NCBI GenBank assembly: GCA_009694025.1
Contig: SHVZ01000035.1
Span: forward strand, 1-34,076
Origin: Alphaproteobacteria bacterium
GTDB taxonomy: Bacteria > Pseudomonadota > Alphaproteobacteria > SHVZ01
Direction of reading: 5' to 3'
DNA length: 34,076 bases
The notes under the pieces are model-generated. The model did no database searches, was not told where the DNA came from, and saw only the letters and a program-made list of their open reading frames with translations. Of this stretch, positions 759 through 33,919 are shown in pieces (positions within the stretch are counted from its first letter, which is position 1; every line of letters starts with the position of its first letter). A program made the position numbers and the translations under genes.

Positions 759-784
759 TTAGGGTAGGCTCGAAACCCGACGGC

Positions 785-994
785 TCAGACGGCCTTCAGG
801 TTCTCCGCCGACGACTTGCCACGCTTGGGATCGCGCTGCTCTTCGAAGGAAACCTTCTGGCCTTCGGAGAGAGTACGCATGCCCGCACGCTCGACCGCCG
901 AGATGTGGACAAAGACATCCGGCCCACCGCCCTCAGGCTGAATGAAGCCGAAACCCTTGGTGCTATTGAACCACTTGACCGTGCCGACCGGCAT
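785..994 (-). CDS. Cold-shock protein, CspA family (69 aa)
   Basis: A single cold-shock domain begins [20 protein letters not shown] and carries RNP1 (KGFGFI) and RNP2 (VFVHIS), the aromatic and basic surface that binds single-stranded RNA and DNA. In this family the protein acts as an RNA chaperone that melts secondary structure. The frame is open upstream to 1123, but the ATG at 992-994 is preferred: it gives the canonical 69-residue length, the domain begins at once, and GGAG lies 9 bases upstream. The 5' leader carries a stable hairpin (1021-1039). It stands alone, transcribed on the minus strand, with a terminator-like stem downstream. Confidence 0.95.
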
Positions 995-1020
995 AACTGG
1001 ACTCCAGATCTGGGAAAGAG

Positions 1021-1039
1021 CGCTGCGTTCGCCGCAGCG
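1021..1039 (-). promoter_or_regulatory. Stem-loop in the cold-shock gene 5' leader
   Basis: CGCTGCG (1021-1027) pairs with CGCAGCG (1033-1039) around a 5-nt loop that reads GCGAA on the minus strand. It sits 26 bases upstream of the start codon, just before the Shine-Dalgarno region. Cold-shock mRNAs often have structured leaders, so a role in mRNA stability or temperature-dependent translation is possible but unproven. Confidence 0.35.
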
Positions 1040-1171
1040 GATTTTACTTTGGAGCGCCCGGGATTTCGGTCTCAGACCACAGTCCGCAGTATTATCCCGA
1101 ACAGAAGACAGCACCGACGCCACTTGCGCAAGAGCTAAAGAGCGTTGGCCTGGCAGGGCCTTGCCGTGGCG

Positions 1172-1722
1172 TTAACCATTCCGGTAGTCGATCTTCACCA
1201 CTTCGACCGACTCGAGGCCTGCCGGGGTGCGCACCTCGATGCTGTCGCCCATCCGGGACTTGATGAGCGCGCGAGCGACCGGCGAGAGCCAGCTCACCTC
1301 ACCCTGGTCGTGGCGGACCTCGTCGACGCCGACGATGCGGATGGTCCGTTCGCGGTCCCGGGAATCGACGTAGGTCACCGTCGCGCCGAAGAACACCTGG
1401 TCGCGGGAGGTCTGCCGCGCGGGGTCGACCACCTCGGCGATCTCCAGGCGCTTGGAAAGGAAGCGGAGCCGCCGGTCGATCTCGCGCAGCCGCTTCTTGC
1501 CGTAGAGGTAGTCGCCGTTCTCCGAGCGGTCGCCGTTGCCGGCGGCCCAGGAGACGACCTCCACGACCTTCGGGCGCTCGACCTGCTTCAGCTGCTTGAA
1601 TTCGTCCTGGAGCCGGCGAAGCCCTTCCGGCGTGATGTAGTTCTTGACCCCGGCCGGCAACGGCTCGGCGGCTTCGAGCTCTTCCTCCTCGGCGGCGTCG
1701 GTCTCCTTGGTGAAGGCCTTGC

Positions 1723-1726
<4 letters not shown>
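1172..1726 (-). CDS. greB: Transcription elongation factor GreB
   Basis: The 184-residue protein begins [10 protein letters not shown], the typical GreB opening, then has an acidic linker (about residues 9-22) and [20 protein letters not shown] leading into the N-terminal coiled coil. The tip carries GDRSENGDY, matching the acidic GDxSENxDY loop that inserts into the RNA polymerase secondary channel and stimulates cleavage of backtracked RNA. The C-terminal FKBP-like domain follows (about residues 100-184: [11 protein letters not shown], then SPVARALI). The frame runs 12 codons further upstream, but the MSKAF start matches the family. That ATG (1724-1726) overlaps the glpK stop codon as ATGA, so translation is probably coupled to glpK. 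At 184 aa it is longer than E. coli GreB because of the acidic N-terminal extension. Confidence 0.93.
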
Positions 1727-3225
<1,499 letters not shown>

Positions 3226-3259
3226 CATTCCCCCGAGCATGGCATTTTCGTTACGGGCG

Positions 3260-3289
3260 ATTATGCTGCGCGCTTTCCTCGCGGAGCAA
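3260..3289 (-). promoter_or_regulatory. glpK: Candidate sigma70-type promoter for glpK-greB
   Basis: On the minus strand, TTGCTC (3284-3289) and CATAAT (3260-3265) are separated by 18 bases, a good match to -35 and -10 boxes. Transcription would start near 3253, giving a leader of roughly 25-30 bases to the glpK ATG. The promoter overlaps the ATG at 3263 that could start glpD, which supports the downstream TTG as the glpD start. Prediction only. Confidence 0.4.
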
Positions 3290-3292
3290 CGA

Positions 3293-4771
3293 TTGGTCTT
3301 CGACCTGCTGGTCATCGGCGGCGGCATCAACGGCGCAGGCATCGCCCGCGACGCCCAAGGTCGCGGCCTGAAGACGCTCCTGGTCGAGGCCCGCGACCTG
3401 GCCTCGGCGACCTCCTCGGCCTCGAGCAAGCTGATCCATGGCGGCCTCCGCTATCTCGAGCAATACGAGTTCCGCCTGGTCCGGGAAGCACTGATCGAGC
3501 GTGAGGTGCTGCTCAGGATGGCGCCGCACATCGTGCGCCCCCTCGCCTTCGTCCTGCCGCATCGCCCGCATCTCAGGCCCGCCTGGATGATCCGGCTCGG
3601 CCTCTTCCTCTACGATCGTCTCGGCGGCCGCGAGTGCTTGGCCGGCTCCTACGGCATCGATTGCCGGAGCCACGCCTTCGGCCGGCCGCTCGCCTCCGCC
3701 ATCACCCGCGCCTTCGTCTATTCCGACTGCTGGGTCGACGACGCCCGCCTCGTCGTGCTGAACGCGCGTGACGCCGCCGATCGCGGCGCCGAGGTCCGCA
3801 CCCGGACGCGCTGCGTCGAGACCAGGCGGGAGGGTGGGATCTGGCGGGCGCGGCTGGTCGCCGACGACGGGGCCGGGAGCGAGGTCGCCGCCCGCGCCCT
3901 GGTCAACGCCGCCGGGCCCTGGGTCAACGAGGTGTTGGGGCAGGTCGTCCACGCGAACAGCCCGAAGCACGTCCGCCTGATCAAGGGCAGCCACATCGTC
4001 GTGCCGCGCCTCCACGACGGGCCCCAGGCCTACATCCTGCAGAACGAGGACCGCCGCATCGTCTTCGTGCTGCCCTACGAGGACCGCTTCAGCCTGATCG
4101 GCACGACCGACGAGCCGTTCACCGGGGACCCGGCGTCGGTCGCGATCACCTCGGCGGAGACCTCCTATCTCTGCGAGGTCGTCACCCGGCATTTCCGCGC
4201 GCGCGTGGCGCCGGAGGACGTGGTCTGGTCCTATGCCGGCGTACGCCCGCTGCATGACGACGCCCATGTCGAGGCGGCGCAGGTGACGCGCGACTACGCC
4301 TTCGACCTCGACCTCGCCGGAGGGGCGCCGTTGCTCTCGATCTTCGGCGGCAAGCTCACGACGTTCCGCAAGCTCGCCGAACATGCGCTCGACCGGTTGG
4401 CCCCGCACCTCCCCGGCATGGGCCTGGCCTGGACGAAGGGCGCGACGCTCCCCGGCGGGGCGATGGCGAACGCCGATTTCGACGCCTTCCTCGCCGACCT
4501 CGTTGCCCGGCATCCCTGGCTGTCGGCGCCGCGCCGCATCGCCCGCGCCTATGGCACGGAGACCGCCCGGATCGTCGGTGACGCCAAGGGACGCGAGGAT
4601 CTCGGCCGCGATTTCGGCCAGGGTTTCACCGAGCGCGAGCTGGCCTATCTGGCCGAGCGCGAATGGGCGAGGATGCCGGACGACGTCCTGTGGCGGCGGT
4701 CCAAGCTCGGCCTCCATCTCGACGCCGGGGCCAAGGCCGCGATCGCCGACTGGTTCACAAGGAGACGCTGA
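3293..4771 (+). CDS. glpD: Glycerol-3-phosphate dehydrogenase (FAD, respiratory)
   Basis: Oxidises sn-glycerol-3-phosphate to dihydroxyacetone phosphate at the membrane, passing electrons to quinone. The FAD motif [20 protein letters not shown] is at the N-terminus. It is followed by [93 protein letters not shown] and [19 protein letters not shown], all diagnostic of GlpD. I chose the TTG at 3293 because GGAG lies 6 bases upstream and the protein then starts [11 protein letters not shown] (492 aa), like the family. In-frame ATGs at 3263 (502 aa) and 3239 have no evident Shine-Dalgarno sequence. The 3239 ATG shares a CATG palindrome with an ATG on the glpK strand. The next gene begins on the base after the stop. 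Confidence 0.94.
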
Positions 4772-5818: not shown

Positions 5819-7027
5819 ATGGCCCGCCTGTCCGATTTGCACACAGCGTCACGCGTACGGTTGAGCGAAATCGAATGTCCCAGCTACGACGCCCAACCCT
5901 GGGTCCAGCTGCCGGCGCTCGACCGCAGCCGTATCGCGATCATCTCGTCGGCGGCGCTGATCCGGCGCGGCGATCCGGTGTTCCTGCCGACCGACACCGG
6001 CTGGCGCCCGGTGCCGCATGCGCTCCCGGACAACGAGCTGTTGCTGAGCCATGTTTCCATCAACTTCGACCGCACCGGCATTCAGCAGGACCTTGAGGTG
6101 GCGTTTCCGCGCCGCCGCCTCGATGAGCTGGTAGAGAGGGGGGTGATCGGTTCGGTCGGGTCGACGCACTACACCTTCATGGGGTCCAACGACCCCAAGC
6201 TGCTCGCCGATACGGCACGCGACATTGCCGGGCATCTCAAGGCCGAGCGCATCGACGCCGCCATCCTGGTTCCCGTCTGACCCTTCTGCACGCGCGCCGT
6301 GAGCGCGCTCGCCCACATCATCGAGACGCACGGCGTCGCCACCGTGGTCATCAGCCTGATCCGCCTCCACACCGAGAAGATCCGGCCGCCGCGTGCCCTC
6401 TGGGTTCCCTTCCAGCTCGGCCGGCCGCTCGGCTCGCCCGGTGAGCCGGCCTTCCAGACCCGCGTCCTTCGCCGGGCCCTGGCGCTGCTCGAGCGGCGGG
6501 ACGGTCCGGTCATCCTCGAGGACTTCGCCGAAGATGAGCCGAGGTCCGCCGACGATCCGGCGTGGTCGCCTCCTTTCGCCGCGACGGCCGGCGCTGTCGA
6601 CGGCAGGAGGCTGCACCGCGAACTCGACCAGGTGTTGCCGGCCTACCGCCAAGCGGTTGCGGCACGAGCGCGCAGCACCGTCGGATTGGCAGGCGTGCCC
6701 CTGCCGGAGGCGGTCGCCTTCATCGGCTGGCTCCTCTCCGGAAGCCTGCCCGTCAGCCCCAGTCCTGCGCTGACCGCGGCACAGGCTCTTCGGTTCATCG
6801 CCGACGACCTCAAGGCGGCCTGGACCGAAGCCGCTTCGCTGACCGGCAAACCCTCCAGCCGACAGCTCGCCGACTGGCTATGGGAGCGGACGGTGTTGGG
6901 GCGGGCGCTGCTCCGGATTCGCGAGCTGGCGCTTCAAAGCGAGGATTCGTCGTTCAAGGCCGCCGGCGGCAGCCTGCTCGTGCCCGGCGCGCGCGTGGCG
7001 CTGCTGGAGGCGGTAAATCCGCCGTAG
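5819..7027 (+). CDS. GrdB/PrdB-family selenoprotein read through an in-frame UGA (Sec154)
   Basis: The frame from ATG 5819 (MARLSDLHTASRVRLSEIEC) reaches a TGA at 6278-6280 and continues open in the same frame to the stop at 7025-7027, giving 402 residues with Sec154. The segment before the TGA has the PrdB-type core (VSINFDRTGIQQDLEVAFP, GVIGSVGSTHYTFMGSNDP, RIDAAILVPV). The segment after it (PFCTRAVSALAHIIETHG, IRPPRALWVPFQLGRPLGSP, RVLRRALALLE) is the family's continuation and makes no sense as a separate protein. The redox motif is U154-P-F-C157. In Clostridium D-proline reductase the PrdB selenocysteine is at a similar position, about residue 150. The C-terminal part (about residues 235-402) is a helical extension beyond the usual PrdB length. 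No PrdA or Grd partner subunits are nearby, so the substrate is unknown. The start lacks a strong Shine-Dalgarno sequence. Confidence 0.85.
6278..6280 (+). other. In-frame TGA, probable selenocysteine codon
   Basis: The codons run GTT CCC GTC TGA CCC TTC TGC, that is V-P-V-U-P-F-C. This places the UGA as the first residue of a UxxC motif, exactly where GRDB-family proteins carry selenocysteine. Similarity to the family is continuous on both sides in one frame. Confidence 0.85.
6292..6308 (+). promoter_or_regulatory. Candidate bacterial SECIS hairpin
   Basis: GCGCGC (6292-6297) pairs perfectly with GCGCGC (6303-6308) around the 5-nt loop CGTGA. The 17-nt hairpin begins 11 nt after the UGA. 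Its loop starts 17 nt after the UGA and has G at the second loop position. These features meet the published description of bacterial SECIS elements, a short upper stem-loop with a loop G, located about 16-37 nt from UGA. Two further pairs (6288-6289 with 6311-6312) could extend the stem below a 2x2 internal loop. Confidence 0.7.
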
Positions 7028-7079: not shown

Positions 7080-7685
7080 ATGACCTGGATCGCGACGATC
7101 GCCTACGAGGCGGCGACCGGCCGCCTCAGGTCGCTTTACGATCGCGTCAAGGGACCCGGCGACAATGTCGACAACATCATGATGGCGCACAGCCTCCGCC
7201 CGCACACGATGGAGGGGCATATGGCGATCTACAAATACGTGCTCCATCATTCCGCCAACCGCGTGCCGAAATGGTTTCTGGAGACGATCGGTGTCTACGT
7301 CAGCCGACTGAACGGCTGCTCCTACTGCATCGACCATCATTTCGCCGGCGTCGTCCGCTTGCTCAAGGACGATGCGCGCGCTACCGCGATCCGCGGCGCA
7401 ATCGAGAGCGGACGATTCGAGGACGCCTTCAGTCCTTCCGAGGCGGCGGCGCTCCGCTATGCCGCCTCCCTCACCATTGCACCGAAGTCGGTGACGGAGG
7501 CGATGATCGAGGCCATGCGCAGCGCCGGGTTCGACGACGGCATGATCCTCGAGATCAATCAGGTGACCGCCTATTTCGCCTACGCCAATCGCACGGTGCT
7601 CGGCCTCGGCGTCACCACCGACGGCGACATTCTCGGCCTGTCGCCGGGCAATGCGGCGGACCCCGACGACTGGTCGCATCGCTGA
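7080..7685 (+). CDS. AhpD-like / carboxymuconolactone-decarboxylase family peroxidase-related protein
   Basis: All-helical CMD/AhpD-fold protein of 201 aa with the redox motif GC80-S-Y-C83-I-D-H-H87, matching the CxxCxxxH active site of alkylhydroperoxidase D and of the peroxidase-related enzyme family. Members use the cysteine pair to reduce peroxides or exchange disulfides. The protein has no signal peptide and should be cytoplasmic. It starts 52 bases after the selenoprotein stop on the same strand, with GGAGG upstream of the ATG (gcggaggcatcgATG). It may therefore be co-expressed with the UxxC selenoprotein and could serve as its thiol partner (inference from adjacency). The precise substrate is unknown. 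Confidence 0.85.
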   Translation: MTWIATIAYEAATGRLRSLYDRVKGPGDNVDNIMMAHSLRPHTMEGHMAIYKYVLHHSANRVPKWFLETIGVYVSRLNGCSYCIDHHFAGVVRLLKDDARATAIRGAIESGRFEDAFSPSEAAALRYAASLTIAPKSVTEAMIEAMRSAGFDDGMILEINQVTAYFAYANRTVLGLGVTTDGDILGLSPGNAADPDDWSHR

Positions 7686-7719
7686 CGGTGGATGACCCGA
7701 CGTCGAGGGGCGAGTGCGC

Positions 7720-9219
7720 CTACGCCGTTTGATCGGCCGCCGGAACGACCCGGTCCTTCTGTAGACGAACCGTGACCCGGCACCCTCGGCCGGGCGCGCT
7801 GACGATCGAGAGGTTACCGCCATGCATCTCGACCGTCAGGCGAGCCAGATGCAAGCCGAGGCCGGTCCCATTTTGGCGGCGGGAAAGGGAATTGTCGAAC
7901 TGGCCGAAGGTCGACAACGCGGTCGGAATGTCCTCCTCCCGCATGCCGATGCCGGTATCGCTGACGACGAACTCGATCCCGCCATCGGGGCAAAGGGCGG
8001 CCGCCAGCTCGATGCGTCCGCCCTTCGGCGTGAACTTGACGCCGTTGCCGAGGAGATTGATCAGCATCTGCTTGATCCGCGTGCGGTCGATCGTCAGCCT
8101 CACCGGAGTTCCGATCTGCAGCGAATCCAGCGTCACGCCGGACGAGTCGCACAAAGGCTGGATGACGCTCAGGCAGTCACCCATCAGTTCCCCGACGTCG
8201 ACGACCTCTTCATGCAGCGTTTCGTTGCCGCTTTCGATCTTGGCGATGTCCAGAACGCTGTCGATGATGGCCAGCAGATGTCGGCCACTCATGCGGATGT
8301 CACGCGCGTACCCGTCGTAGCGGCGATGGCCCAGGGGGCCGAACATCCGATGCTCCATCATCTCGGCGAATCCGATGATCGCGTTGAGCGGGGTCCGAAG
8401 CTCATGGCTCGTGATCCAGACGAATCGGGACTTGGCCTCGTTCGCCGCCTCGGCCCGGAGTTTTTCGTGGACCAGCTCGACGGTCCGCTCATGCACCCGC
8501 TGTTCGAGCCTCTCGTTGTTCCGGGTGAGCAGAACCTCCGATGCCTGCAACATGGCGTTGGTGTACCTCAGTGTCGTTTCGCGCTCGTCCTCGCGCCGGA
8601 TCATCTCGTCGAAGGCCCGGGTGATCGCGCCAATCTCGTCCTTGCCGTGAATCCCGATCGGAAGTCTTTCGCCGGTCGTCGTGGAATGACGAATGGCGGT
8701 CTGCAAGAGGTGGAGCGGACGGCCGACGATGAAGCGAAATCCGACAAAGGCGGCCAGGACCGCGCTGAGGAAGGCGAAGGCCACGACCGAGAGGCCGAGC
8801 GACATCTTGAGTTGCTGGAACTCGCGCAATTCGGCGTCGGAGAAGCGGATCCGAAGCGTGCTGTCGGCGGGTCTGCGGACCACCAGGACGATTTCCTCGA
8901 CGGTCCCGCCGTCAAGGCATCCTTGCGCCGGCGGCACGGCCGCCAGGAGAGTGCCATCCCCGGCGCGGAATTCGGCGCAGACAAAGGCGCGGTCGACCGC
9001 CAGCGGCGCCAGCAGATCCTGGGCTAGCAGCTGGTTGCCGTGCGAATCGTGGCGGGCCAGCGCCATCGCCGCCCGCCCTGCCTGGTTGCCGATGCGCGTG
9101 GCCAGAACCTCCCGGTCCATGCGGATCTGGAGGTCGATCAGGTAGCCGATGCTGGGAATCGCCAGGCCCAGAAAGACCGGCATCAGGATCAGCAGGAATC
9201 TGGCCAGCAGACCGCGCAT
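7720..9219 (-). CDS. Membrane sensor histidine kinase (HAMP-HisKA-HATPase)
   Basis: A 499-residue kinase. TM1 spans about residues 5-28, a periplasmic or extracytoplasmic sensor of about 110 residues follows, and TM2 spans about 139-163. A HAMP region (about 165-215, with GRPLHLLQTAI and DEIGAITRAFDEM) leads into a coiled coil. The H box SH272ELRTPLNAIIGF carries the phospho-accepting histidine. The ATPase domain has an N box (INLLGNGVKFTPKGG), G1 (DTGIGM) and G2 (GTGLGLHLAR). There is no receiver domain and no response regulator nearby, so the partner is unknown. It lies 57 bases downstream of the secreted protein gene on the same strand and is probably transcribed with it from the region containing the CtrA-type box. 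The sensor domain is not one I recognise. Confidence 0.93.
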   Translation of the reverse strand: MRGLLARFLLILMPVFLGLAIPSIGYLIDLQIRMDREVLATRIGNQAGRAAMALARHDSHGNQLLAQDLLAPLAVDRAFVCAEFRAGDGTLLAAVPPAQGCLDGGTVEEIVLVVRRPADSTLRIRFSDAELREFQQLKMSLGLSVVAFAFLSAVLAAFVGFRFIVGRPLHLLQTAIRHSTTTGERLPIGIHGKDEIGAITRAFDEMIRREDERETTLRYTNAMLQASEVLLTRNNERLEQRVHERTVELVHEKLRAEAANEAKSRFVWITSHELRTPLNAIIGFAEMMEHRMFGPLGHRRYDGYARDIRMSGRHLLAIIDSVLDIAKIESGNETLHEEVVDVGELMGDCLSVIQPLCDSSGVTLDSLQIGTPVRLTIDRTRIKQMLINLLGNGVKFTPKGGRIELAAALCPDGGIEFVVSDTGIGMREEDIPTALSTFGQFDNSLSRRQNGTGLGLHLARLTVEMHGGNLSIVSAPGRGCRVTVRLQKDRVVPAADQTA

Positions 9220-9829: not shown

Positions 9830-10786
9830 CTAGACTTTGACCGGCGTCAGCAGCGGCTTTCCCGCCAGGAAGGCCTGGACGTTGGCGATCATCAGGTCGC
9901 CCATGGCGCCGCGGGTCTCGTGGCTGGCCGAGGCCTGGTGGGGTTGCAGGACGACGTTGTCGAGCATGTCGACCAGGGCCGTCGGCACGCATGGCTCGGC
10001 CTCGAACACGTCGAGGCCGGCGGCGGCGATCTGGCCCGACGCGAGGGCGGCGACCAGCGCAGGCTGATCGACGACGGAGCCGCGGGCGACGTTGATGAAG
10101 ATGCCCGTCGGCCCCAGCGCCTCCAGCGCCTTCGCATTCACCAGATGCTTGGTGCCCGGACCGCCGGGCGTCACCGCCATCAGAATGTCGACATCCTTAG
10201 CCAGCGACACCGGGTCGGCATAGTAGCGATAGGGCACGTCCTGCTTCGACCGTCCGTGATAGGCGATGGCGAGGTTGAACGCGGACGCCCGCTTGGCGAT
10301 CGCCTTGCCGATACGGCCGAGGCCGATGATGCCGAGGGTCTTGCCGCCGGTCAGCGACCACGTCATCTCCATGTTGCCCCGCTTCACCCATTCGCCCGAG
10401 CGGACATAGCGGTCGCCCTTGACGATCTGGCGGACGGTCGAGAGCAGGAGAGCCATGGCGAAGTCCGCCACCTCTTCGGTCAGCACGTCCGGCGTGTTGG
10501 TGACGGCGATGCCGCGTCGAGCGAGCTCCGCCACGTTCACCCCGTCGACGCCGACGCCGAAGCAGGCGACCAGCTTCAGGTTCGGCAGCGCGTCCAGAAT
10601 CTCCGGCGCGATCGGATCGTGACCGCTGGTGAAGGCGCAGCGGATCTCCGGCCCGATCGTCCTGGCCAACGCCAGCTTGTCGGTCGCCAGCCACAGCTTG
10701 TGCGCGGTGAACAGCTCGTCGATCTTCGCCATCGTCCCAGCGTAGGAGACCGGGCCGTTCTGCAGGACGGGGGGCTTGGAAGGCAT
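9830..10786 (-). CDS. D-isomer-specific 2-hydroxyacid dehydrogenase (hydroxypyruvate/glyoxylate reductase-like)
   Basis: 318-residue NAD(P)-dependent dehydrogenase. The substrate domain halves flank a Rossmann fold with LGIIGLGRIGKAIAKRASAF (GxGxxG at 155-160). The catalytic set is R235 in NVARGSVVD, the acidic DVFEAEP region at about 260-265, and H283 in LQPHQASAS. The pattern FGVGVDGVN and NTPDVLTEEVADFAM is typical of the glyoxylate/hydroxypyruvate reductase branch, which reduces 2-keto acids to D-2-hydroxyacids or the reverse. It starts 16 bases after the stop of the UxaA-family gene on the same strand, so the pair forms an operon. It probably handles a hydroxy or keto acid produced in the same sugar-acid route. 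The exact substrate is not determinable from sequence. Confidence 0.9.
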   Translation of the reverse strand: MPSKPPVLQNGPVSYAGTMAKIDELFTAHKLWLATDKLALARTIGPEIRCAFTSGHDPIAPEILDALPNLKLVACFGVGVDGVNVAELARRGIAVTNTPDVLTEEVADFAMALLLSTVRQIVKGDRYVRSGEWVKRGNMEMTWSLTGGKTLGIIGLGRIGKAIAKRASAFNLAIAYHGRSKQDVPYRYYADPVSLAKDVDILMAVTPGGPGTKHLVNAKALEALGPTGIFINVARGSVVDQPALVAALASGQIAAAGLDVFEAEPCVPTALVDMLDNVVLQPHQASASHETRGAMGDLMIANVQAFLAGKPLLTPVKV

Positions 10787-10802
10787 CGCTCGGGGCCGTT
10801 CC

Positions 10803-12326
10803 TCACATCACCGCGCCGATCGACCACGGCTGGAACTCGTCCTCGCCGAAGCCCATCTCCTCGCTCTTGGTCTTCTTGCCCGACGCCGTGTCCAGAATCA
10901 GCCGGAAGATGCGCTCGCCGCAAGCCTCGACCGTCTCCGCACCCTCGATGATGGTGCCGCAATTGATGTCCATGTCGTCGGGCATGCGTTTGTAGAGCAT
11001 CGAGTTGGTGGCGAGCTTGATCGAGGGCGCCGGCTTGCAGCCGAAGACCGAGCCCCGCCCCGTGGTGAAGCAGATCATGTTGGCGCCGGAGGCCACCTGG
11101 CCGGTCGCCGACACCGGGTCGTATCCGGGCGAGTCCATGAAGTTGAAGCCGTGGACAGTGAGCGGTGCCGCGTACTGGAGGACGCCGACGAGATTGGTGG
11201 TGCCGCCCTTGGTCGCGGCGCCGAGGGCCTTCTCGAGGATGGTGGTGAGCCCGCCCGCCTTGTTGCCGGGCGAGGGGTTGTTGTCCATCGAGCCCTTGTT
11301 CTTCGCCGTGTAGTCCTCCCACCAACGCATCAGGTCGACCAGCTTCTGGCCGACCTCGCGGCTGGAGGCCCGGCGCACCAGCACGTGCTCGGCGCCATAG
11401 GTCTCCGGCGTCTCCGACAGAATGACCGACCCGCCGTGCTTCACCAGCAGGTCCGAAGCGGCGCCAAGCGCCGGATTGGCGGAGATGCCGGAATAACCGT
11501 CGGAGCCGCCGCATTGGAGCCCGATCGTGATGTGGCTCGCCGGCACGGTCTCGCGCTTCACGTCGTTGACGACCGGCAGCATCTCGCGGATCGCCGCCAG
11601 CGCCTTGTTCATCGTCGCGACCGACCCGCCCGACTCCTGGATCGTCATGGTGTGCAGGAACGGCCCGGCTTCGAGCTTGTGGGCGCGCATGAGGCCGCCG
11701 ATCTGGTTCGCCTCGCAGCCCAGCCCCATGATCAGGATGCCGCCGAAATTGGCGTGCAGCGCGTATCCGGCGAGCGTTCGCCGGAGCACGTCCATGCCGT
11801 CGCCCTCGGCCGCCATGCCGCAGCCGAGGCCGTGGGTCAGCGCGACCACGCCGTCGACGTTGGGGAAGTCCTCCAGCAGCGCCTCGGCCTTCCGGGCGGT
11901 CATCTTGGCGACATGGGCCGAGCAGTTCACCGAGGTCAGGATGCCGATGTAGTTGCGGGTTCCGACCCGGCCGTCCTTGCGCTTGATGCCTTCGAAGGTC
12001 GCCTGGGCCGCGCCTGTCGCATAGGGGGTCGGCTTCGCCTCGACGCAGAACTCGTACTGCCGCTCGAACATCTGGAAGGCGCAGTTGTGGGTGTGCACGT
12101 GGTCGCCGGCGCCGATCGGCCGGCTGGCGAAGCCGATGATCTGGCCGTAGCGGCGGACGGGCTCGCCTTCGCCGACCGCCTTGGTCGCGATCTTGTGCCC
12201 GGCCGGGATATGCCCTTTGGCGCTCACGCCCTCGCCCGGGATCTGGGTCCCCGGCAGGATGTCGGCGCGGGCGACGACGACGGGATCGGCGGCGTTGAGC
12301 CGGATCGTCAGGGTCGGCTGGGTCAT
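10803..12326 (-). CDS. UxaA/GarD-family sugar-acid dehydratase (altronate dehydratase family)
   Basis: 507-residue iron-dependent dehydratase of the altronate/galactarate family. An N-terminal SAF domain (about residues 1-95) is fused to the large catalytic part. Diagnostic blocks are GTRNYIGILTSVNCSAHVA, THGLGCGM, IMGLGCEANQ, LQCGGSDGYSGISANPALG, ILSETPETYGAEHVL, NPSPGNKAGGLTTILEKALG, FTTGRGSVFGCKPAPSIKLA and DINCGTIIEG. Members remove water from aldonic or aldaric acids to give 2-keto-3-deoxy acids. Full length and all core motifs suggest an active enzyme. It heads a minus-strand pair with a 2-hydroxyacid dehydrogenase and is divergent from a BDH2-like SDR, consistent with a short sugar-acid degradation cassette. 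The stereochemistry of the substrate cannot be read from sequence, so I leave the symbol blank. Confidence 0.9.
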   Translation of the reverse strand: MTQPTLTIRLNAADPVVVARADILPGTQIPGEGVSAKGHIPAGHKIATKAVGEGEPVRRYGQIIGFASRPIGAGDHVHTHNCAFQMFERQYEFCVEAKPTPYATGAAQATFEGIKRKDGRVGTRNYIGILTSVNCSAHVAKMTARKAEALLEDFPNVDGVVALTHGLGCGMAAEGDGMDVLRRTLAGYALHANFGGILIMGLGCEANQIGGLMRAHKLEAGPFLHTMTIQESGGSVATMNKALAAIREMLPVVNDVKRETVPASHITIGLQCGGSDGYSGISANPALGAASDLLVKHGGSVILSETPETYGAEHVLVRRASSREVGQKLVDLMRWWEDYTAKNKGSMDNNPSPGNKAGGLTTILEKALGAATKGGTTNLVGVLQYAAPLTVHGFNFMDSPGYDPVSATGQVASGANMICFTTGRGSVFGCKPAPSIKLATNSMLYKRMPDDMDINCGTIIEGAETVEACGERIFRLILDTASGKKTKSEEMGFGEDEFQPWSIGAVM

Positions 12327-21270: not shown

Positions 21271-22854
21271 ATAAAACGGGAGAGACTCTTAGGATCGGTC
21301 CTGGCCGCGGCCGCGCTCGCCCTCGTGGCGCCGGCACCGGCAGAGGCCCAGAACAACGTGCTGCGCGTCGTGCCCCAGGCCGACGTCAAGGTGCTGGACA
21401 CGCATTTCTCGTCGATCCAGGTCACCAAGATCTTCGCTCTCATGGTCCACGACACGCTGTTCGCCTGGGACTACAAGCTCGGCGCCAAGCCGCAGATGGT
21501 CGAGGCCTGGTCGGTGTCGCCGGACAAGCTCACCTACACCTTCACGCTCCGCCCCGGCCTCAAGTTCCATGACGGCCAGCCGGTGACCTCAAAGGACGTG
21601 GTCGCCTCGATCCAGCGCTGGACCAAGCGCGACGTCATCGGCCAGCGGCTCGCCGCCTTCACCGCTTCGATGGCCGCGGTCGACGATCGCACGTTCACTC
21701 TCACGCTCAAGGAGCCCTACGGCTTCGTCGAGTTCTCCCTGGGATCGGCCGGCGGCCAGATGCCCGCGATCTACCGGGAAGCCGACGCCAAGACCGATTC
21801 CTCGACGCCGATCGCGACGGCCATCGGCTCCGGCCCCTTCGTCCTCAACCGCGACGAGTGGAAGCCCGGCGCCTTCGTCGCCTTCAAGAAGAACCCGGAC
21901 TACATCCCGCGCGCCGAGCCGGTCGACGGGCTTGCCGGCGGCAAAATCGCCAAGGTCGACCGGGTCGAGTGGCACATCATCCCGGATTCCGGCACCGTCG
22001 CCGCGGCGCTCGTCAAGGGCGAGGTCGATCTCTGGGATTCGCCGGCGACCGACCAGCTCGGCCCGCTGGTCAACAACAAGGACATCGTCATCGACAAGCT
22101 ACCGCCCTTCGGCAACTACGGCGGTATCCGCGTCAACTCGCTGCATCCGCCCTTCAACAACGTGAAGGCGCGCCAGGCGCTGGCTTACCTCTTCGATCAG
22201 AGGGACTTCATGGCCGCCGCTTACGGCGACCAGAAATGGTGGAAGGTCTGCTACGCCTACTACGTCTGCGACGCGCCCTGGATGACCCAGGCCGGGTCGG
22301 AGCCCTACCAGAAAAAAGACCCCGCCAAGGCCAAGCAGCTCTTCGCCGAGGCCGGTTACAAGGGCGAGAAGCTGACGCTCATCACCACCAACGAGCTGCC
22401 GCAGATCGGCGCCATGGCGCTGGTGGCGGCGGCGGAGCTGAAGAAGATCGGCGTCGAGGTCGAAATGGTGGTGACCGACTGGGGCACGGTGGTCAGCCGC
22501 ATGCCGAAGAAGGACGCGCCCGACAAGGGCGGCTGGAACATGTTCACCACCTGGTTCACCGGCACGACCATGCATTCGCCGCTGACCAACATCGGCACCA
22601 ACATGGCCTGCGATCAGACCAACTGGTTCGGCTGGCCCTGCGATGCCGAGGTCGAGAAGATGCGCGACGCCTTCCTCAGGGCGCCGGACGACGCCGCCCG
22701 CAAGGTGATCCTGGATCCGCTGCACAAGCGGCTGATGGAGACCCAGCCCTACACGCTGCTCGGACAGTTCGACCCGCCCTTCGTCTGGCGGAAGAATGTC
22801 CAGGGCGTGGTCAAGGGCTCCGTGCTGGTCTTCTGGAACATCAGCAAGTCTTGA
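21271..22854 (+). CDS. ABC transporter substrate-binding protein, family 5 (peptide/opine type), apparent ATA start
   Basis: Periplasmic binding protein of about 527 aa in the DppA/OppA family (VLRVVPQADVKVLDTHFSSI, TYTFTLRPGLKFHDGQPVTS, FGNYGGIRVNSLHPPFNNVK, ending SVLVFWNISKS). Read from 21271 the N-terminus is M-KRERLLGSVLAAAALALVA, a normal signal peptide with AEA-Q cleavage. The codon at 21271-21273 is ATA, preceded by GAGGAG with a 7-base spacer. The only canonical in-frame start nearby, GTG 21325, falls inside the signal peptide. No permease or ATPase genes adjoin it. It ends in a strong terminator. It is a paralogue of the protein at 32333-33919 (both have NWFGWPCD). The ligand is unknown. 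Confidence 0.92.
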   Translation: MKRERLLGSVLAAAALALVAPAPAEAQNNVLRVVPQADVKVLDTHFSSIQVTKIFALMVHDTLFAWDYKLGAKPQMVEAWSVSPDKLTYTFTLRPGLKFHDGQPVTSKDVVASIQRWTKRDVIGQRLAAFTASMAAVDDRTFTLTLKEPYGFVEFSLGSAGGQMPAIYREADAKTDSSTPIATAIGSGPFVLNRDEWKPGAFVAFKKNPDYIPRAEPVDGLAGGKIAKVDRVEWHIIPDSGTVAAALVKGEVDLWDSPATDQLGPLVNNKDIVIDKLPPFGNYGGIRVNSLHPPFNNVKARQALAYLFDQRDFMAAAYGDQKWWKVCYAYYVCDAPWMTQAGSEPYQKKDPAKAKQLFAEAGYKGEKLTLITTNELPQIGAMALVAAAELKKIGVEVEMVVTDWGTVVSRMPKKDAPDKGGWNMFTTWFTGTTMHSPLTNIGTNMACDQTNWFGWPCDAEVEKMRDAFLRAPDDAARKVILDPLHKRLMETQPYTLLGQFDPPFVWRKNVQGVVKGSVLVFWNISKS

Positions 22855-28374: not shown

Positions 28375-30420
28375 TCAGCGTCGGGGAACGGCGATGTCGA
28401 GCCAGCCTTCGGGCGTCACCGTCGCGCGGTCGCCGGAACGGAGCAGCACGGTCGTGGTCGCCGACTCGACGATCGCCGGCCCGTCGATCGCCTGTCCGCG
28501 GGCGAGGCCGTCGAAATCGTGGACCGGCGCCTCGACCCAGTCGCCGAGATGGATGCGCCGCCGGGCGCTCGCCGGCGCCGGCGACCGCTCCGGGAGCGTC
28601 GGCTCCTTCGGCAGGTCCGGAAGCACGCCGATTACCGCGACCCGGGCGTTGACCAGCACCACCTCCTGATCGCGGAGCGCGTAGGTGTAGAGCTCGGTGT
28701 GGCGCTGATGGAAGCGCTCGACGATCTCCGGCATCGGGTCCTCGGCGCTCCAGTCGACGCCGTCGAGCGGCACCGCGACCTCGAAGATCTGCTCGCCATA
28801 GCGCATGTCGGCGGCATAGTGGATGCGGATCGGGCCGTCGAAGGTGGCGGGCAGCCGCGCCCGCCCCTCCGCCGCCATCTCCTCGTACAGCGCCTTGAGC
28901 GCGGCCGTGCTGAGCCGCCGGGTGTCGCCGATATGGGTGCGGGCGACCTCGTAGCGAAGGTCGGTCGCGAGCATGCCCCAGGCCGAGAGGACCGCGGCGA
29001 TCCTCGGCACGATCACCCGCGTGAGGTCGAGCTGGCGCGCCACGTCGGTCGCATGCAATCCGGCGGCGCCACCGAACGACAGCAGCGCGAAACGCCGTGG
29101 ATCGACGCCGCGGCGCACCGACACCAACCGGAGGCCTTCGGCCATGTTGGTGTTGACGACCCGGTGCACGCCGGCGGCGGCGGCGACGCGGTCGACCTTG
29201 AGATCCTTCGCCAGGCGGTCGAGGGCGGCTTCTGCTGCGCCCGAATCCAGCTTGCTGCGGCCGCCGAGGAAATTGCCGGCGTCGAGATAACCCAGCACCA
29301 GGTTGGCGTCGGTCACCGTGGCGGCGAGCCCACCCTGGCCGTAGCACGCCGGCCCGGGCTCGGCGCCGGCGCTTTCCGGCCCGACATAGAGGAGTCCGCC
29401 GGCATCGACGCGGCCGATCGAGCCACCGCCGGCGCCCAGGCTGACGATGTCCAGGCTGTTGAGCGCGACGCGCTGGCCGCCGACGCTGCGGTCGGGCGCC
29501 AGCGACGGCTCGCCGTTGACGATGAGCGAGATGTCGGTCGAGGTTCCGCCCATGTCGAAGGGGATGAGATTCTCGGTGCCTATCAGGCTGGACGCGTAGC
29601 GGCTGCCGGCGACGCCGCCAGCGGGGCCGGAGAGGACCGAGCCGGCGGCGAGGCGCACCGCCTCGTCGATCGGCGTGACGCCGCCGTGGGACTGGATGAT
29701 CAGGACCGGCCCCGAATAGCCTGCGTCCTTCAGGCGCTTCTCCAGCCGCTTCAGGTAGCTGGACAGGATCGGGCCGACATAGGCGTTGATCACGGTGGTC
29801 GAGACCCGCTGGAACTCCTTGATCTGCGGGAAGACGTCGGAGGAGAGCGAGACATAGGCCGACCGCATCGCCTTCTTCACCGCCTTGCCGGTCGTCCGCT
29901 CGTGGCGCGGATCGCGATAGGCGTGCAGGTAGCAGACCGCGACCGAGTCGACGCCCTGCTTCTTCAGGATCGCGATGGCACGGTCGAGGGAGCGGCGGTC
30001 GAGGGCGAGGCCGACCTTGCCATCGGCGCGCATCCGCTCTTTGACCCCGAGCCGGCGGGCGCGGGGCACCAGAGGCTCCGGCGCCGGCATGCGGAGATTG
30101 TAGCGGTCGTCCTTGAGGCCCTCGCGCATCTCGATGACGTCGCGGTGGCCGTCGGTGGTGAGGAGACCGACCTTGGCGCCCTTGCGCTCGAGCAGCGCGT
30201 TGGTCGCGACCGTGGTGCCGTGGACGATGCGGTCGGTTTGCTGGAGCAAGCCCGGGAGATCGGTCGACAGCATCTCGGCGAGCCGCACGAGCCCGTCGAT
30301 CACGCCGATCGACGGATCGGCCGGGGTCGAGGCCGCCTTGGCGAGGGTGGAGCGGCCGGCCTCATCGACCGCGACAAGGTCGGTGAAGGTGCCGCCGACG
30401 TCGACGCCGATTCGGATCAT
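28375..30420 (-). CDS. hyuA: Hydantoinase/oxoprolinase, HyuA subunit (ATP-dependent)
   Basis: 681-residue protein with the HyuA N-terminal ATPase-like domain (MIRIGVDVGGTFTDLVAVDE), the acetate-kinase-like fold motifs IVHGTTVATNALLE and FDMGGTSTDISLIVNG, and the glycine-rich SLGAGGGSIGRVDAGG. With HyuB it forms an ATP-dependent hydrolase of hydantoins, 5-oxoproline or N-methylhydantoin-type rings, or related acetone/acetophenone carboxylase-type activities. The ATG overlaps the hyuB stop (ATGA), so hyuB and hyuA are translated together. The full length is present. The exact ring substrate is unknown. Confidence 0.92.
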   Translation of the reverse strand: MIRIGVDVGGTFTDLVAVDEAGRSTLAKAASTPADPSIGVIDGLVRLAEMLSTDLPGLLQQTDRIVHGTTVATNALLERKGAKVGLLTTDGHRDVIEMREGLKDDRYNLRMPAPEPLVPRARRLGVKERMRADGKVGLALDRRSLDRAIAILKKQGVDSVAVCYLHAYRDPRHERTTGKAVKKAMRSAYVSLSSDVFPQIKEFQRVSTTVINAYVGPILSSYLKRLEKRLKDAGYSGPVLIIQSHGGVTPIDEAVRLAAGSVLSGPAGGVAGSRYASSLIGTENLIPFDMGGTSTDISLIVNGEPSLAPDRSVGGQRVALNSLDIVSLGAGGGSIGRVDAGGLLYVGPESAGAEPGPACYGQGGLAATVTDANLVLGYLDAGNFLGGRSKLDSGAAEAALDRLAKDLKVDRVAAAAGVHRVVNTNMAEGLRLVSVRRGVDPRRFALLSFGGAAGLHATDVARQLDLTRVIVPRIAAVLSAWGMLATDLRYEVARTHIGDTRRLSTAALKALYEEMAAEGRARLPATFDGPIRIHYAADMRYGEQIFEVAVPLDGVDWSAEDPMPEIVERFHQRHTELYTYALRDQEVVLVNARVAVIGVLPDLPKEPTLPERSPAPASARRRIHLGDWVEAPVHDFDGLARGQAIDGPAIVESATTTVLLRSGDRATVTPEGWLDIAVPRR

Positions 30421-32159
30421 GGCCGGCGCCGCCCCTTGGCGGTGCGCTTCGGCGCGCGTGCCGGTTTGCGCTTACCGGCCTTCTTCCTGGGTGCGGGCTT
30501 CGCCGCCGCCGGCCGCGTGGTGAAGCCGTTCCGGGCATCGCTGGTCCGGGCCTCTTTCGCCCGGGCCTTCCCCGGTCCCCAGCCGCCGCCGCCGCCGGAG
30601 AGGATGTGGAAGACGTCGCCTGGGCGGATCTCGATGCCGACCTCCTTGGTCTTGATCGCCCGGTCGGGACGACGGCGGGACCGCAGCACGTAGCGGTGCG
30701 GCAGGCCGTCCTTGCCGCCGAGCATGCCGCAGGCGCCGTACTTGACGCCGTCGCCGGCGGTGTTGCCGAGCGCCGGCTCATCGATCTCCATCACCAGCTC
30801 GAGCGTGCAACCGGGCCCGCCGCGATAGGTGCCGTCGCCGCCGGAGTCCGCCCTGAACTCGTGCCGGCGGAAGAACAGCGGGAAGCGGACCTCCGTCACC
30901 TCCAGGCTGCCGAACTTGATGCCGCCTGCGGCCTGCCACTCGCCGCCGCCGGGCCAGCCGTCACCGGCCGAGGAGCCGCCGCCGCCCGGCCGTGCCTGAA
31001 ACAGGTGCCAGATGAACGGCCGCCCGAGGCGCGGATCGACACCCTGGATGGCGATGCGGAAGCGGCGGCCCCAGCCAGCCATGGCGCGCTCCGGGCAAGC
31101 CGGCGCCAGCGCCTTGATGATCGCCTCCATGATCTCCTGCGCGCAGTGGTTGGTCGCCAGCGTCACCGGTGCGCCGGGATTGGCCCAGACCACGGTGCCT
31201 GGCTCGGCCAGCACCGTCAGCGGCCGGAACGTCCCGTCGTTCTTCGGCGTGTGTGGGTCGATCAGATAGGCCAGCGCCATCGCCACCGCCGAGCGCATGT
31301 TCGGATACGAGGAGTTGATGAAGCCCACGACCTGCCGGTGGGAGTCCGTCAGGTCGATGGTGAGGTCGCTGCCCTTCTTGGTGACCGTGGCGCGGATGTG
31401 GACGTCCTTATACTTGTGGCCGTCGTCGTCGAGGATCGCCTCGCCCTTGTAGACGCCGTCCTTCCAGCCGGCGATGACCGCGCGGGTCTGGCGCTCGGCC
31501 GAGTCGAGGATGGTCTCGATCGCCGCATGCGCCATCTCGGAGCCGAATTCTTCGATCAGCGCCAGCAGGCGCCGCTCGCCGATGCGGGCCGAGCCGATCA
31601 TCGCCGCGAGGTCGCCGCGGAAGTCGCGCGGGTGGCGGACGTTGGTGACGATCATCTCGTAGACGTCGCGGCGGAGCTCGCCCTTGTCGTAGAGCCGGAG
31701 CGGCGTGATGCGGAGCCCCTCCTGCCAGATTTCGGTCGCCGCCGCGTTGTAGGCGCCGTGGGTGGCGCCGCCGATGTCGCTCTGGTGCGAGCGGTTGATC
31801 GACCAGAAGGTCGGCTTGCCGTTCTCGAACACCGGCACGAAGGCGGTCAGGTCCGGCAGGTGGTTGCCGCCGTGATAGGGATCGTTGAGGAGGAAGACGT
31901 CGCCAGGATGGACATCGTCCTTGAAGAACTCGGTGACCGAGCGGGCCGCCCACGGGAGCGCGCCGACATGAATCGGCACGTGCTCGGCCTGGGCGATCAG
32001 GCGGCCTTCGGGATCGCAGATGCCGGTCGAGAAGTCGCGGCTCGAATTGAGGATCTGGGAATACGAGGTCCGGAGCATCGCCTCGCCCATCTCCTCGACG
32101 ATGGCGAAGAGCCGGTGCTGGACGACGGACGCCACGATCGGGTCGCAGGCAACGGTCAC
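30417..32159 (-). CDS. hyuB: Hydantoinase/oxoprolinase, HyuB subunit
   Basis: 580-residue HyuB (hydantoinase B domain) with ILNSSRDFSTGICDPEGRLI, DVFLLNDPYHGGNHLPDLTA, VPVFENGKPTFWSINRSHQS and DIGGATHGAY, all typical of the catalytic metal-binding half. The start is GTG (32157-32159), 6 bases after AGGAGGAACC. A basic tail of about 35 residues, rich in K, R and P (after NGFTTRPAA), extends past the usual end and may be a disordered extension. The gene lies 173 bases downstream of the family 5 binding-protein gene on the same strand, suggesting a transporter-fed catabolic unit. Confidence 0.92.
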   Translation of the reverse strand: MTVACDPIVASVVQHRLFAIVEEMGEAMLRTSYSQILNSSRDFSTGICDPEGRLIAQAEHVPIHVGALPWAARSVTEFFKDDVHPGDVFLLNDPYHGGNHLPDLTAFVPVFENGKPTFWSINRSHQSDIGGATHGAYNAAATEIWQEGLRITPLRLYDKGELRRDVYEMIVTNVRHPRDFRGDLAAMIGSARIGERRLLALIEEFGSEMAHAAIETILDSAERQTRAVIAGWKDGVYKGEAILDDDGHKYKDVHIRATVTKKGSDLTIDLTDSHRQVVGFINSSYPNMRSAVAMALAYLIDPHTPKNDGTFRPLTVLAEPGTVVWANPGAPVTLATNHCAQEIMEAIIKALAPACPERAMAGWGRRFRIAIQGVDPRLGRPFIWHLFQARPGGGGSSAGDGWPGGGEWQAAGGIKFGSLEVTEVRFPLFFRRHEFRADSGGDGTYRGGPGCTLELVMEIDEPALGNTAGDGVKYGACGMLGGKDGLPHRYVLRSRRRPDRAIKTKEVGIEIRPGDVFHILSGGGGGWGPGKARAKEARTSDARNGFTTRPAAAKPAPRKKAGKRKPARAPKRTAKGRRRP

Positions 32160-32332: not shown

Positions 32333-33919
32333 TTACTTCTTCGTCGCGTTCCACCAGACGACCTTGAAGTTGTCCAAGACGCCGTCGACGGTGTTCCGCC
32401 AGCCGGCCTTCTGGAAGAACATACCCAGGGGCACATAGGGGACGGTCTCGTAGAAGCGTTTCTGGAACTCCTCCGCGTGCCTCTTCCGTTCGCTCATGTC
32501 GGAGATCGCGACGAACTTGAGCCGCATGGCTTCGAGCTGCTCGTCGCAAGGCCATCCGAACCAGTTCTTGCCGTCACAATGCGTCGGCAGAATGCTGGCA
32601 GTCAAGGGATCGGTGCGATCCTGGGTGGGCCCCTGGGTCGGGAAGACATGCCAGCCCGCCCGGTTGACCTTGGGATCGTCCTTGAGCGTTCGGCGCTGCA
32701 CGAGCGTGCCGAAGTCCATGTTCTGCAGGTCGACGTTGACGCCGATCTGCTTCAACTGCTGCGCCGTCAAGGTGATCACCGCCGACAGGGATTGGTTCTC
32801 CGACGGGTTCAGCAGCACGAACGGATCGCCGGTGTAGCCGGACTCCTTGAGGAGCTGCTTCGCCTTCTCGATGTTGCCCGGGCCCGGCCGGGCGAAGCTG
32901 TCGGTTCCCGCGGCGGTCTCGAGCGGATAGCCGCAGGCGAAAACCGCCCAGCACGGTTTCTCCAGGCTCGGATTGCCGACGATGGCGGCGAGCGTATCTT
33001 GCTGGTTCATGGCATGAAGCAGCGCCAGCCGGAATTTCTGGTTGTTCGTCGGCGGCACCAGATGGTTCAGGCGCAGGAGCGGATTGAAACCGCCGCGATT
33101 GACCACCTTGGTGACCATGTTCCGTTCCTTCTCCACCACCGGGACAAGGTGCGCGGGAATGTATTCGTAGAAGTCGACCTCGCCCCGTATCAGCGCCTGG
33201 ACCGCGGTCGCCGTGTCGGAGATGTAGGTCACCTCGACGCCATCGACATGGACGGTCTTGCCCCCGGAGTATCCGTCGGCCTTCTCCGCTCGCGGCACAT
33301 AGTCCGGATTCTTGCGGTAGGACCACTTGTTGCCGGGAACCCATTTCGCCCGCTCGAAGATGAACGGGCCGGAACCGATGGAGTCGGTGACCTGCTCGCC
33401 GGGGTCCGTCACCGCGTCCTTCTCGCGCATGATGTGCACGACGGTAGGCGCGCCCAGCATCTCGATGACCGGGCCGAATTTCTCCTTGAGCCTGATCTCG
33501 AAGGTGCGGGCGTCGATCGCCACGATCTCGGCCGTCCGCGCCATCAGGTTCTGTCCGGGGCCGTAGCGCACACCCCATCGCTTGATCGACGGGATGACGT
33601 CCTTGGTCGTGATCGGCGTGCCGTCGTGGAACTTGAGGCCGGTCCTGAGCACGAACGTCCAGGTCAGGCCGTCGGGGCTGGTCTTCCAGCTCTCGACCAT
33701 CTGCGGCCGCGCGATGCCGGTCGAGTCCTGGGCGAACAGGTTGTCGTAGACGAGGTATGCATGCCCGGCGGTGATGTGGGCGCTGGTCCAGATGGGATCG
33801 ACCGAGACCAGGTCGGCCTCAGCCGCCTGCTTGATGATGTTCTGCGCCTGTGCGCTCGAAGCGGCAAAGGCCGCCAGCAGCAGGGATACCGCAGCCAAGT
33901 GGAATACCCGACGAAGCAT
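32333..33919 (-). CDS. ABC transporter substrate-binding protein, family 5 (second paralogue)
   Basis: 528-residue binding protein with a signal peptide (MLRRVFHLAAVSLLLAAFAA, cleavage near the AQAQ). It has the family 5 fold blocks TWTFVLRTGLKFHDGTPITT, GVEVTYISDTATAVQALIRG and VNRGGFNPLLRLNHLVPP, and ends NFKVVWWNATKK. The ATG at 33917-33919 follows GGGAGG with a 5-base spacer. It lies upstream of hyuBA on the same strand and probably supplies their substrate through permeases encoded elsewhere. It resembles the 21271-22854 protein in overall layout and in NWFGWPCD, so the two are paralogues with different ligands. Confidence 0.93.
   Translation of the reverse strand: MLRRVFHLAAVSLLLAAFAASSAQAQNIIKQAAEADLVSVDPIWTSAHITAGHAYLVYDNLFAQDSTGIARPQMVESWKTSPDGLTWTFVLRTGLKFHDGTPITTKDVIPSIKRWGVRYGPGQNLMARTAEIVAIDARTFEIRLKEKFGPVIEMLGAPTVVHIMREKDAVTDPGEQVTDSIGSGPFIFERAKWVPGNKWSYRKNPDYVPRAEKADGYSGGKTVHVDGVEVTYISDTATAVQALIRGEVDFYEYIPAHLVPVVEKERNMVTKVVNRGGFNPLLRLNHLVPPTNNQKFRLALLHAMNQQDTLAAIVGNPSLEKPCWAVFACGYPLETAAGTDSFARPGPGNIEKAKQLLKESGYTGDPFVLLNPSENQSLSAVITLTAQQLKQIGVNVDLQNMDFGTLVQRRTLKDDPKVNRAGWHVFPTQGPTQDRTDPLTASILPTHCDGKNWFGWPCDEQLEAMRLKFVAISDMSERKRHAEEFQKRFYETVPYVPLGMFFQKAGWRNTVDGVLDNFKVVWWNATKK

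Follow-up and report, generated by a model that had tools for sequence, protein, structure and literature searches.

A predicted selenoprotein with a PrdB-like region and a helical extension, encoded across an in-frame UGA in an alphaproteobacterial genome

Two adjacent open reading frames in a 34,076-nucleotide stretch of alphaproteobacterial DNA (contig SHVZ01000035.1; referred to in its full length as the window) raise the question whether they represent two short genes or a single gene in which UGA is translated as selenocysteine (Sec), and what the product of such a gene might do. The first frame (5819–6280) starts with ATG, encodes 153 amino acids and is terminated by TGA at 6278–6280, the sole TGA within a frame that runs on to TAG at 7025–7027. 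In a mechanical ORF list the second half is displayed as a separate ORF starting with GTG (6299–7027). This GTG represents the codon of Val161, falls on the apical loop of the hairpin described below, which resembles a SECIS, and is unlikely to be a true start codon. Readthrough of the TGA as Sec yields a 402-residue product from 5819–7027 on the forward strand which contains the motif U154-P-F-C157; gene coordinates, TGA position and motif are exactly those of the original prediction. The codon for Cys157, proposed as the resolving partner within the UxxC pair, is located at 6287–6289. The NCBIfam model for PrdB (TIGR04483) matches residues 16–225 (5864–6493, forward strand; E 1.7e-25), and the family similarity accordingly continues across the TGA, as had been claimed. 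Automatic annotation is expected to split the gene at the UGA, because no Pfam or NCBIfam model calls the window protein above cut-off.

The homologues in three congeners of the same genus are 74–77 % identical from end to end, and every one has a single TGA at the corresponding position; further homologues (~40–53 % identity) likewise align in full length and contain the TGA. When single genomes of 84,980 species were scanned, 237 relatives were retrieved, the best 80 of which were analysed. All of these 80, the first three being the records of the congeners, display a lone TGA at this site and a frame open to ~400 amino acids, with L145 as the sole case carrying a further, non-TGA stop upstream. 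By label, they belong to Alpha-, Gamma- and Deltaproteobacteria, Desulfobacterales and kin, Chloroflexi (including SAR202 and Dehalococcoidia), Nitrospinota and one Clostridiales MAG. Homologues ending at the TGA without the downstream segment, named beforehand as evidence against readthrough, were not encountered among the 80. The dN/dS ratios versus the congeners (NG86) amount to 0.14–0.22 before and 0.21–0.29 after the TGA, and the downstream part is therefore under protein-level selection in this frame. Conserved TGA, selection past it and the retained length of ~400 residues agree in supporting the proposal that the two frames form one gene. Tandem long-form copies, apparently with a separate TGA splitting each of them, were observed at L122, L149 and L153. 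The long form of G040 (L018, G040:C4) harbours an extra in-frame TAG at about codon 281 besides the Sec TGA, at a position apparently occupied by Trp in the nearest relative of the alignment; a pseudogene, an error or recoding are conceivable.

Bacterial SECIS elements form a hairpin just downstream of the UGA, with a G early in the loop. In the 81 aligned sequences, all of which have the TGA and Cys157, codons +4, +5, +6, +8 and +9 downstream of the UGA hardly vary at the wobble position: codons +4 to +6 are ACG (76/81), CGC (76/81) and GCC (74/81), and codons +8 and +9 use the same wobble base in 98–99 % of the sequences, in contrast to the equally conserved Thr at +21, for which ACC, ACG and ACA are used freely. 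The mean frequency of the major wobble base across codons +4 to +9 is 0.90, compared to 0.42 (maximum 0.48) in 200 shuffles with codons drawn from each gene's own synonymous set. The implied stem pairs nucleotides +12/+28 to +17/+23 plus +18/+22, with 6.04 pairs per sequence versus 3.71 ± 0.13 in the synonymous shuffles; it is nearly invariant, displays a few compensated pairs and carries an apical G19-U20 in 81 of 81 sequences. In the window, this putative hairpin (nucleotides +12 to +28 after the UGA; 6292–6308, forward strand; apical G-U at 6299–6300) fits the bacterial SECIS rule. It folds as predicted, with a stability that is ordinary for its composition (z -0.37), and the case for a SECIS-like element is therefore entirely comparative. 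An Rfam search of the UGA region returned chance matches only. The conserved UGA together with the hairpin provides a ready signature for re-annotation of the family in environmental genomes.

A natural experiment was available in 385 alphaproteobacterial genomes, in which 33 long-form loci with and three without the TGA were detected. The latter three read PVCPNCTR, i.e., Cys replaces Sec; none of them retains the apical G-U, and SelB was found in none of their genomes. Among the further TGA genomes, SelB was found in 24 of 25 (in G341 only a fragment, located where a contig ends), as opposed to 0 of 12 genomes without the TGA form (Fisher p = 7e-9); these 12 comprise the three Cys genomes and nine with short forms only, the nine being grouped by the missing TGA and not by the residue at the Sec site. 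The exception is G268, which has the TGA form and an estimated completeness of 100 %, with no SelB match at E <= 1e-60. In 12 genomes the distance between the gene and selB does not exceed ~15 kb, the gene of G059 being located directly beside selC-selB-selA, and selB (10) and selA (9) are the commonest neighbours across 81 loci with flanks of up to 6 kb. Taken together, the conserved TGA, the purifying selection past it, the SECIS-like element, the restriction of Cys homologues to genomes without SelB and the linkage to sel genes bear out the proposed reading of the UGA: codon 154 is almost certainly decoded as selenocysteine, and the predicted status of the 5819–7027 product as a selenoprotein may be considered solid on this comparative sequence evidence. 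The gene may be one reason why these bacteria keep selenocysteine, as is suggested because it often resides beside selA-selB-selC and is changed to the Cys form only where SelB is missing.

The family relationship is looser. TIGR04483 scores 89.8 bits versus a cut-off of 300 bits, and Pfam GRDB (PF07355) yields 17.8 bits for the window protein versus a gathering cut-off of 22 bits; E values for the similarity to GrdB-type selenoprotein B (PF07355, TIGR01918) are 3e-9 for the window protein and extend to 1e-18 among relatives; with PF07355, other members reach 4.5e-13, and all 56 aligned members match this model at some level. Residues 34–230 share 32 % identity with an annotated PrdB (237 amino acids), with the UxxC at the same place. 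The original assignment to the GRDB family is accordingly a loose one, with scores below the PF07355 and PrdB cut-offs. AlphaFold models one confident chain (pLDDT 94.2, pTM 0.93) with an alpha/beta part, the UPFC at the start of helix 155–170, and subsequent helices from 262 to 399. Residues 226–402 (6494–7024, forward strand), which are mostly helical and absent from classical PrdB, match no Pfam or NCBIfam model, and sequence and fold searches of the PDB returned nothing convincing (best fold E 6.7e-3, TM ~0.2). The protein is PrdB-like, with a helical extension of ~175 residues that is missing from classical PrdB. With a chance somewhat short of even, the 400-residue form may constitute a separate, almost obligately selenium-dependent family, composed of a PrdB-like core and its own helical domain, without relatives of solved structure. 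Its members would be widespread in phyla ranging from Proteobacteria to Chloroflexi, their genes would often adjoin the sel operon, and both substrate and reaction would be unlike those of D-proline or glycine reductase. A second, shorter group of PrdB-like selenoproteins (~280–350 amino acids; UPxCHQTV or UPLCPHTV) was observed in the same and other genomes, often with several copies per genome (L019–L022, L112 at about +3.7 kb, L132 at about -5.1 kb, plus loci in the scan of 385 genomes).

The best explanation of the whole, considered very likely, is a single UGA-Sec gene for a 402-residue protein, presumably a thiol-dependent reductase. SelB and tRNA-Sec would decode the UGA at codon 154 as selenocysteine, for which the support is comparative, and decoding would be directed by the hairpin that starts 12 nucleotides downstream and carries the invariant G-U at its tip. 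The product would consist of the PrdB/GrdB-like domain, with U154-P-F-C157 at a helix start, and the helical extension. It may act as a stand-alone, cytosolic reductase, as proposed because of the UxxC pair, the replacement by Cys and the fact that no recognised partners were seen. The selenolate would attack an electrophilic or reducible substrate, Cys157 would then resolve the resulting intermediate, and the selenenylsulphide thus formed would be reduced again by a thiol system of the cell. A general redox role, deduced from the UxxC motif and the family, appears rather probable.

A narrower version of this explanation specifies the substrate class: the protein may serve in detoxification as a reductase that uses Sec to break a carbon-heteroatom bond, e.g., by reductive dehalogenation or other reduction of electrophiles. 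Among 124 immediate neighbours tested, glutathione transferases (4), haloacid-dehalogenase-like hydrolases (3), TetR regulators (3), disulphide oxidoreductases (3) and glyoxalases (3) were found in some relatives, and monofluoroacetate induces farACEB, an operon with a GrdB-like selenoprotein, up to 3,000-fold (PMC10838667); because of these neighbour classes and the GrdB-like fluoroacetate reductase, detoxification of electrophiles is a reasonable guess by analogy. However, each neighbour class occurs in only three to four loci (raw counts) and no conserved operon is formed, and the fluoroacetate system uses a GrdE-like partner, none of which was seen here by a search that was also silent in the control genomes. 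This narrower version is regarded as possible, yet rather doubtful.

An AhpD/CMD-type peroxidase-related protein (GCSYCIDHH, CxxC; TIGR01926 above cut-off) is encoded 52 bp downstream (7080–7685, forward strand) and is a possible functional neighbour; no such neighbour was conserved in the congener loci, where the simple ORF caller may have missed it. AhpD-like proteins are a known selenoprotein group, and the window protein of this type is the Cys form. Next to the homologue at L109, a 489-residue protein with a CPTC motif is encoded (7302–8768), the family of which recurs near three other loci; a guess by eye that it belongs to the UGSC family was not borne out, as neither Pfam nor NCBIfam returned a match. 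An automated search for other neighbours split by a UGA yielded mostly antisense frames of the gene itself. Elsewhere in the window, a hydantoinase/oxoprolinase A and B pair (28375–32159, reverse strand) and two SBP_bac_5 solute-binding proteins (21325–22854, forward; 32333–33919, reverse) represent ordinary-looking catabolism and transport.

That the protein is a true PrdB subunit, converting D-proline to 5-aminovalerate together with a pyruvoyl PrdA, is improbable. TIGR04483 is its best family match, and the identity to annotated PrdB and the position of the UxxC agree with such a role. Against it stand the score far below the 300-bit cut-off, the length of 402 versus 237 amino acids with the extension that classical PrdB does not have, and the genomic context. 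PF09338 (PrdA/GrdE) was detected in 0 of 38 genomes with the gene or close to the window's genome, a search in which the control genomes were silent as well, and sel genes were the commonest neighbour families displayed, with none of PrdA/PrdC type among the families listed. The claim that PrdA or Grd partner subunits are lacking is, with the same silence of the controls in mind, suggested by these counts. Since no PrdA/GrdE pyruvoyl subunit was seen, the protein is probably not a D-proline reductase; it is better described as a predicted Sec/Cys redox protein of the PrdB/GrdB kind and should not be filed as D-proline reductase.

Very improbable, too, is that the TGA is a genuine stop, i.e., that the locus is a frame-preserving pseudogene or two genes in a lineage that has lost Sec insertion. 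This alternative draws on the window's own assembly (78 % complete), in which selA, selB and tRNA-Sec were not found; of the sel genes proposed for inspection, only selD is present, as a 729-residue oxidoreductase-SelD fusion. Candidates were rejected upon inspection: an Rfam tRNA-Sec match (46.3 bits) is tRNA-Ser(GCT) and a weaker one tRNA-Lys, the two best selB matches are IF-2 and CysN/C by sequence, and the best selA match is a SelA-like PLP enzyme with partial model coverage, far below cut-off. The absence of selB and tRNA-Sec, which the original prediction had counted as contrary evidence, is thus formally the finding for this assembly, in which selD is nevertheless present and a contig ends at the flank in question. 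For a 12-kb segment of congener G005 that contains the sel operon at 773–4133, the sole good match in the window's genome (G000) is at 10456–11910 and lies on contig C10, which ends 22 bp beyond the match on the side facing the G005 operon; the intervening 6 kb are also missing from the assembly. An assembly gap would be the simplest explanation for the missing selA-selB-selC. These genes are present in congeners G001, G002 and G005, including two of the three congeners with the TGA gene; they were likewise not found in G003 (82 % complete), and in G004 selA is cut off at a contig end. A genuine stop is further contradicted by the TGA kept in 80 of 80 relatives, purifying selection past it and the intact SECIS-like element. 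That the UGA is read as another amino acid (e.g., tryptophan) via a variant code is hardly conceivable: all that speaks for it is a frame that stays open once TGA is taken as a sense codon, as opposed to one TGA at one fixed site in several phyla, TGA-less homologues (n = 3) with Cys and never Trp, and an occurrence that tracks SelB.

With the selenoprotein as the preferred reading, its novelty can be placed. In the Sargasso Sea survey of 2005, selenoproteins of the PrdB type with UxxC ranked third in abundance among the families (42 genes; PMC1088965), and in GOS in 2008 they were among the commonest (235 Sec and 110 Cys sequences; PMC2398784); a 2006 report (PMC1794560) lists "proline reductase" selenoproteins in Anaeromyxobacter and Geobacter. 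Occurrence outside Clostridium, to which the original prediction had pointed, is hence not a novelty. The Sargasso and GOS proteins resemble the window protein in PrdB similarity, UxxC, the common Sec form, Cys homologues and origin from aquatic bacteria; the likeness is based on PrdB similarity and UxxC and not on length (400-residue versus short form), and their function was apparently taken from the name only. Clostridial PrdB (TIGR04483) aligns with the N-terminal 230 residues at the identity given above and with the UxxC in the same place, but is only 237 residues long, has no helical extension and works with PrdA. GrdB, GrdF and GrdH (PF07355, TIGR01918), selenoprotein B of glycine, sarcosine and betaine reductase, share a distant similarity around the Sec site; the match, however, is mainly to the C-terminal part of GrdB and below the Pfam cut-off, and no GrdE-type partner was seen. 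The fluoroacetate reductase FarB (PMC10838667) of the anaerobic Cloacibacillus (Synergistota) is a relative of GrdB that contains Sec and has been recruited for a substrate other than an amino acid; it works with a GrdE-like partner and is encoded in an operon with a transporter. It is likened here by description and not by sequence. In sum, the 402-residue protein belongs to a group of PrdB-like selenoproteins known from ocean surveys since 2005, within which its long form is unnamed.
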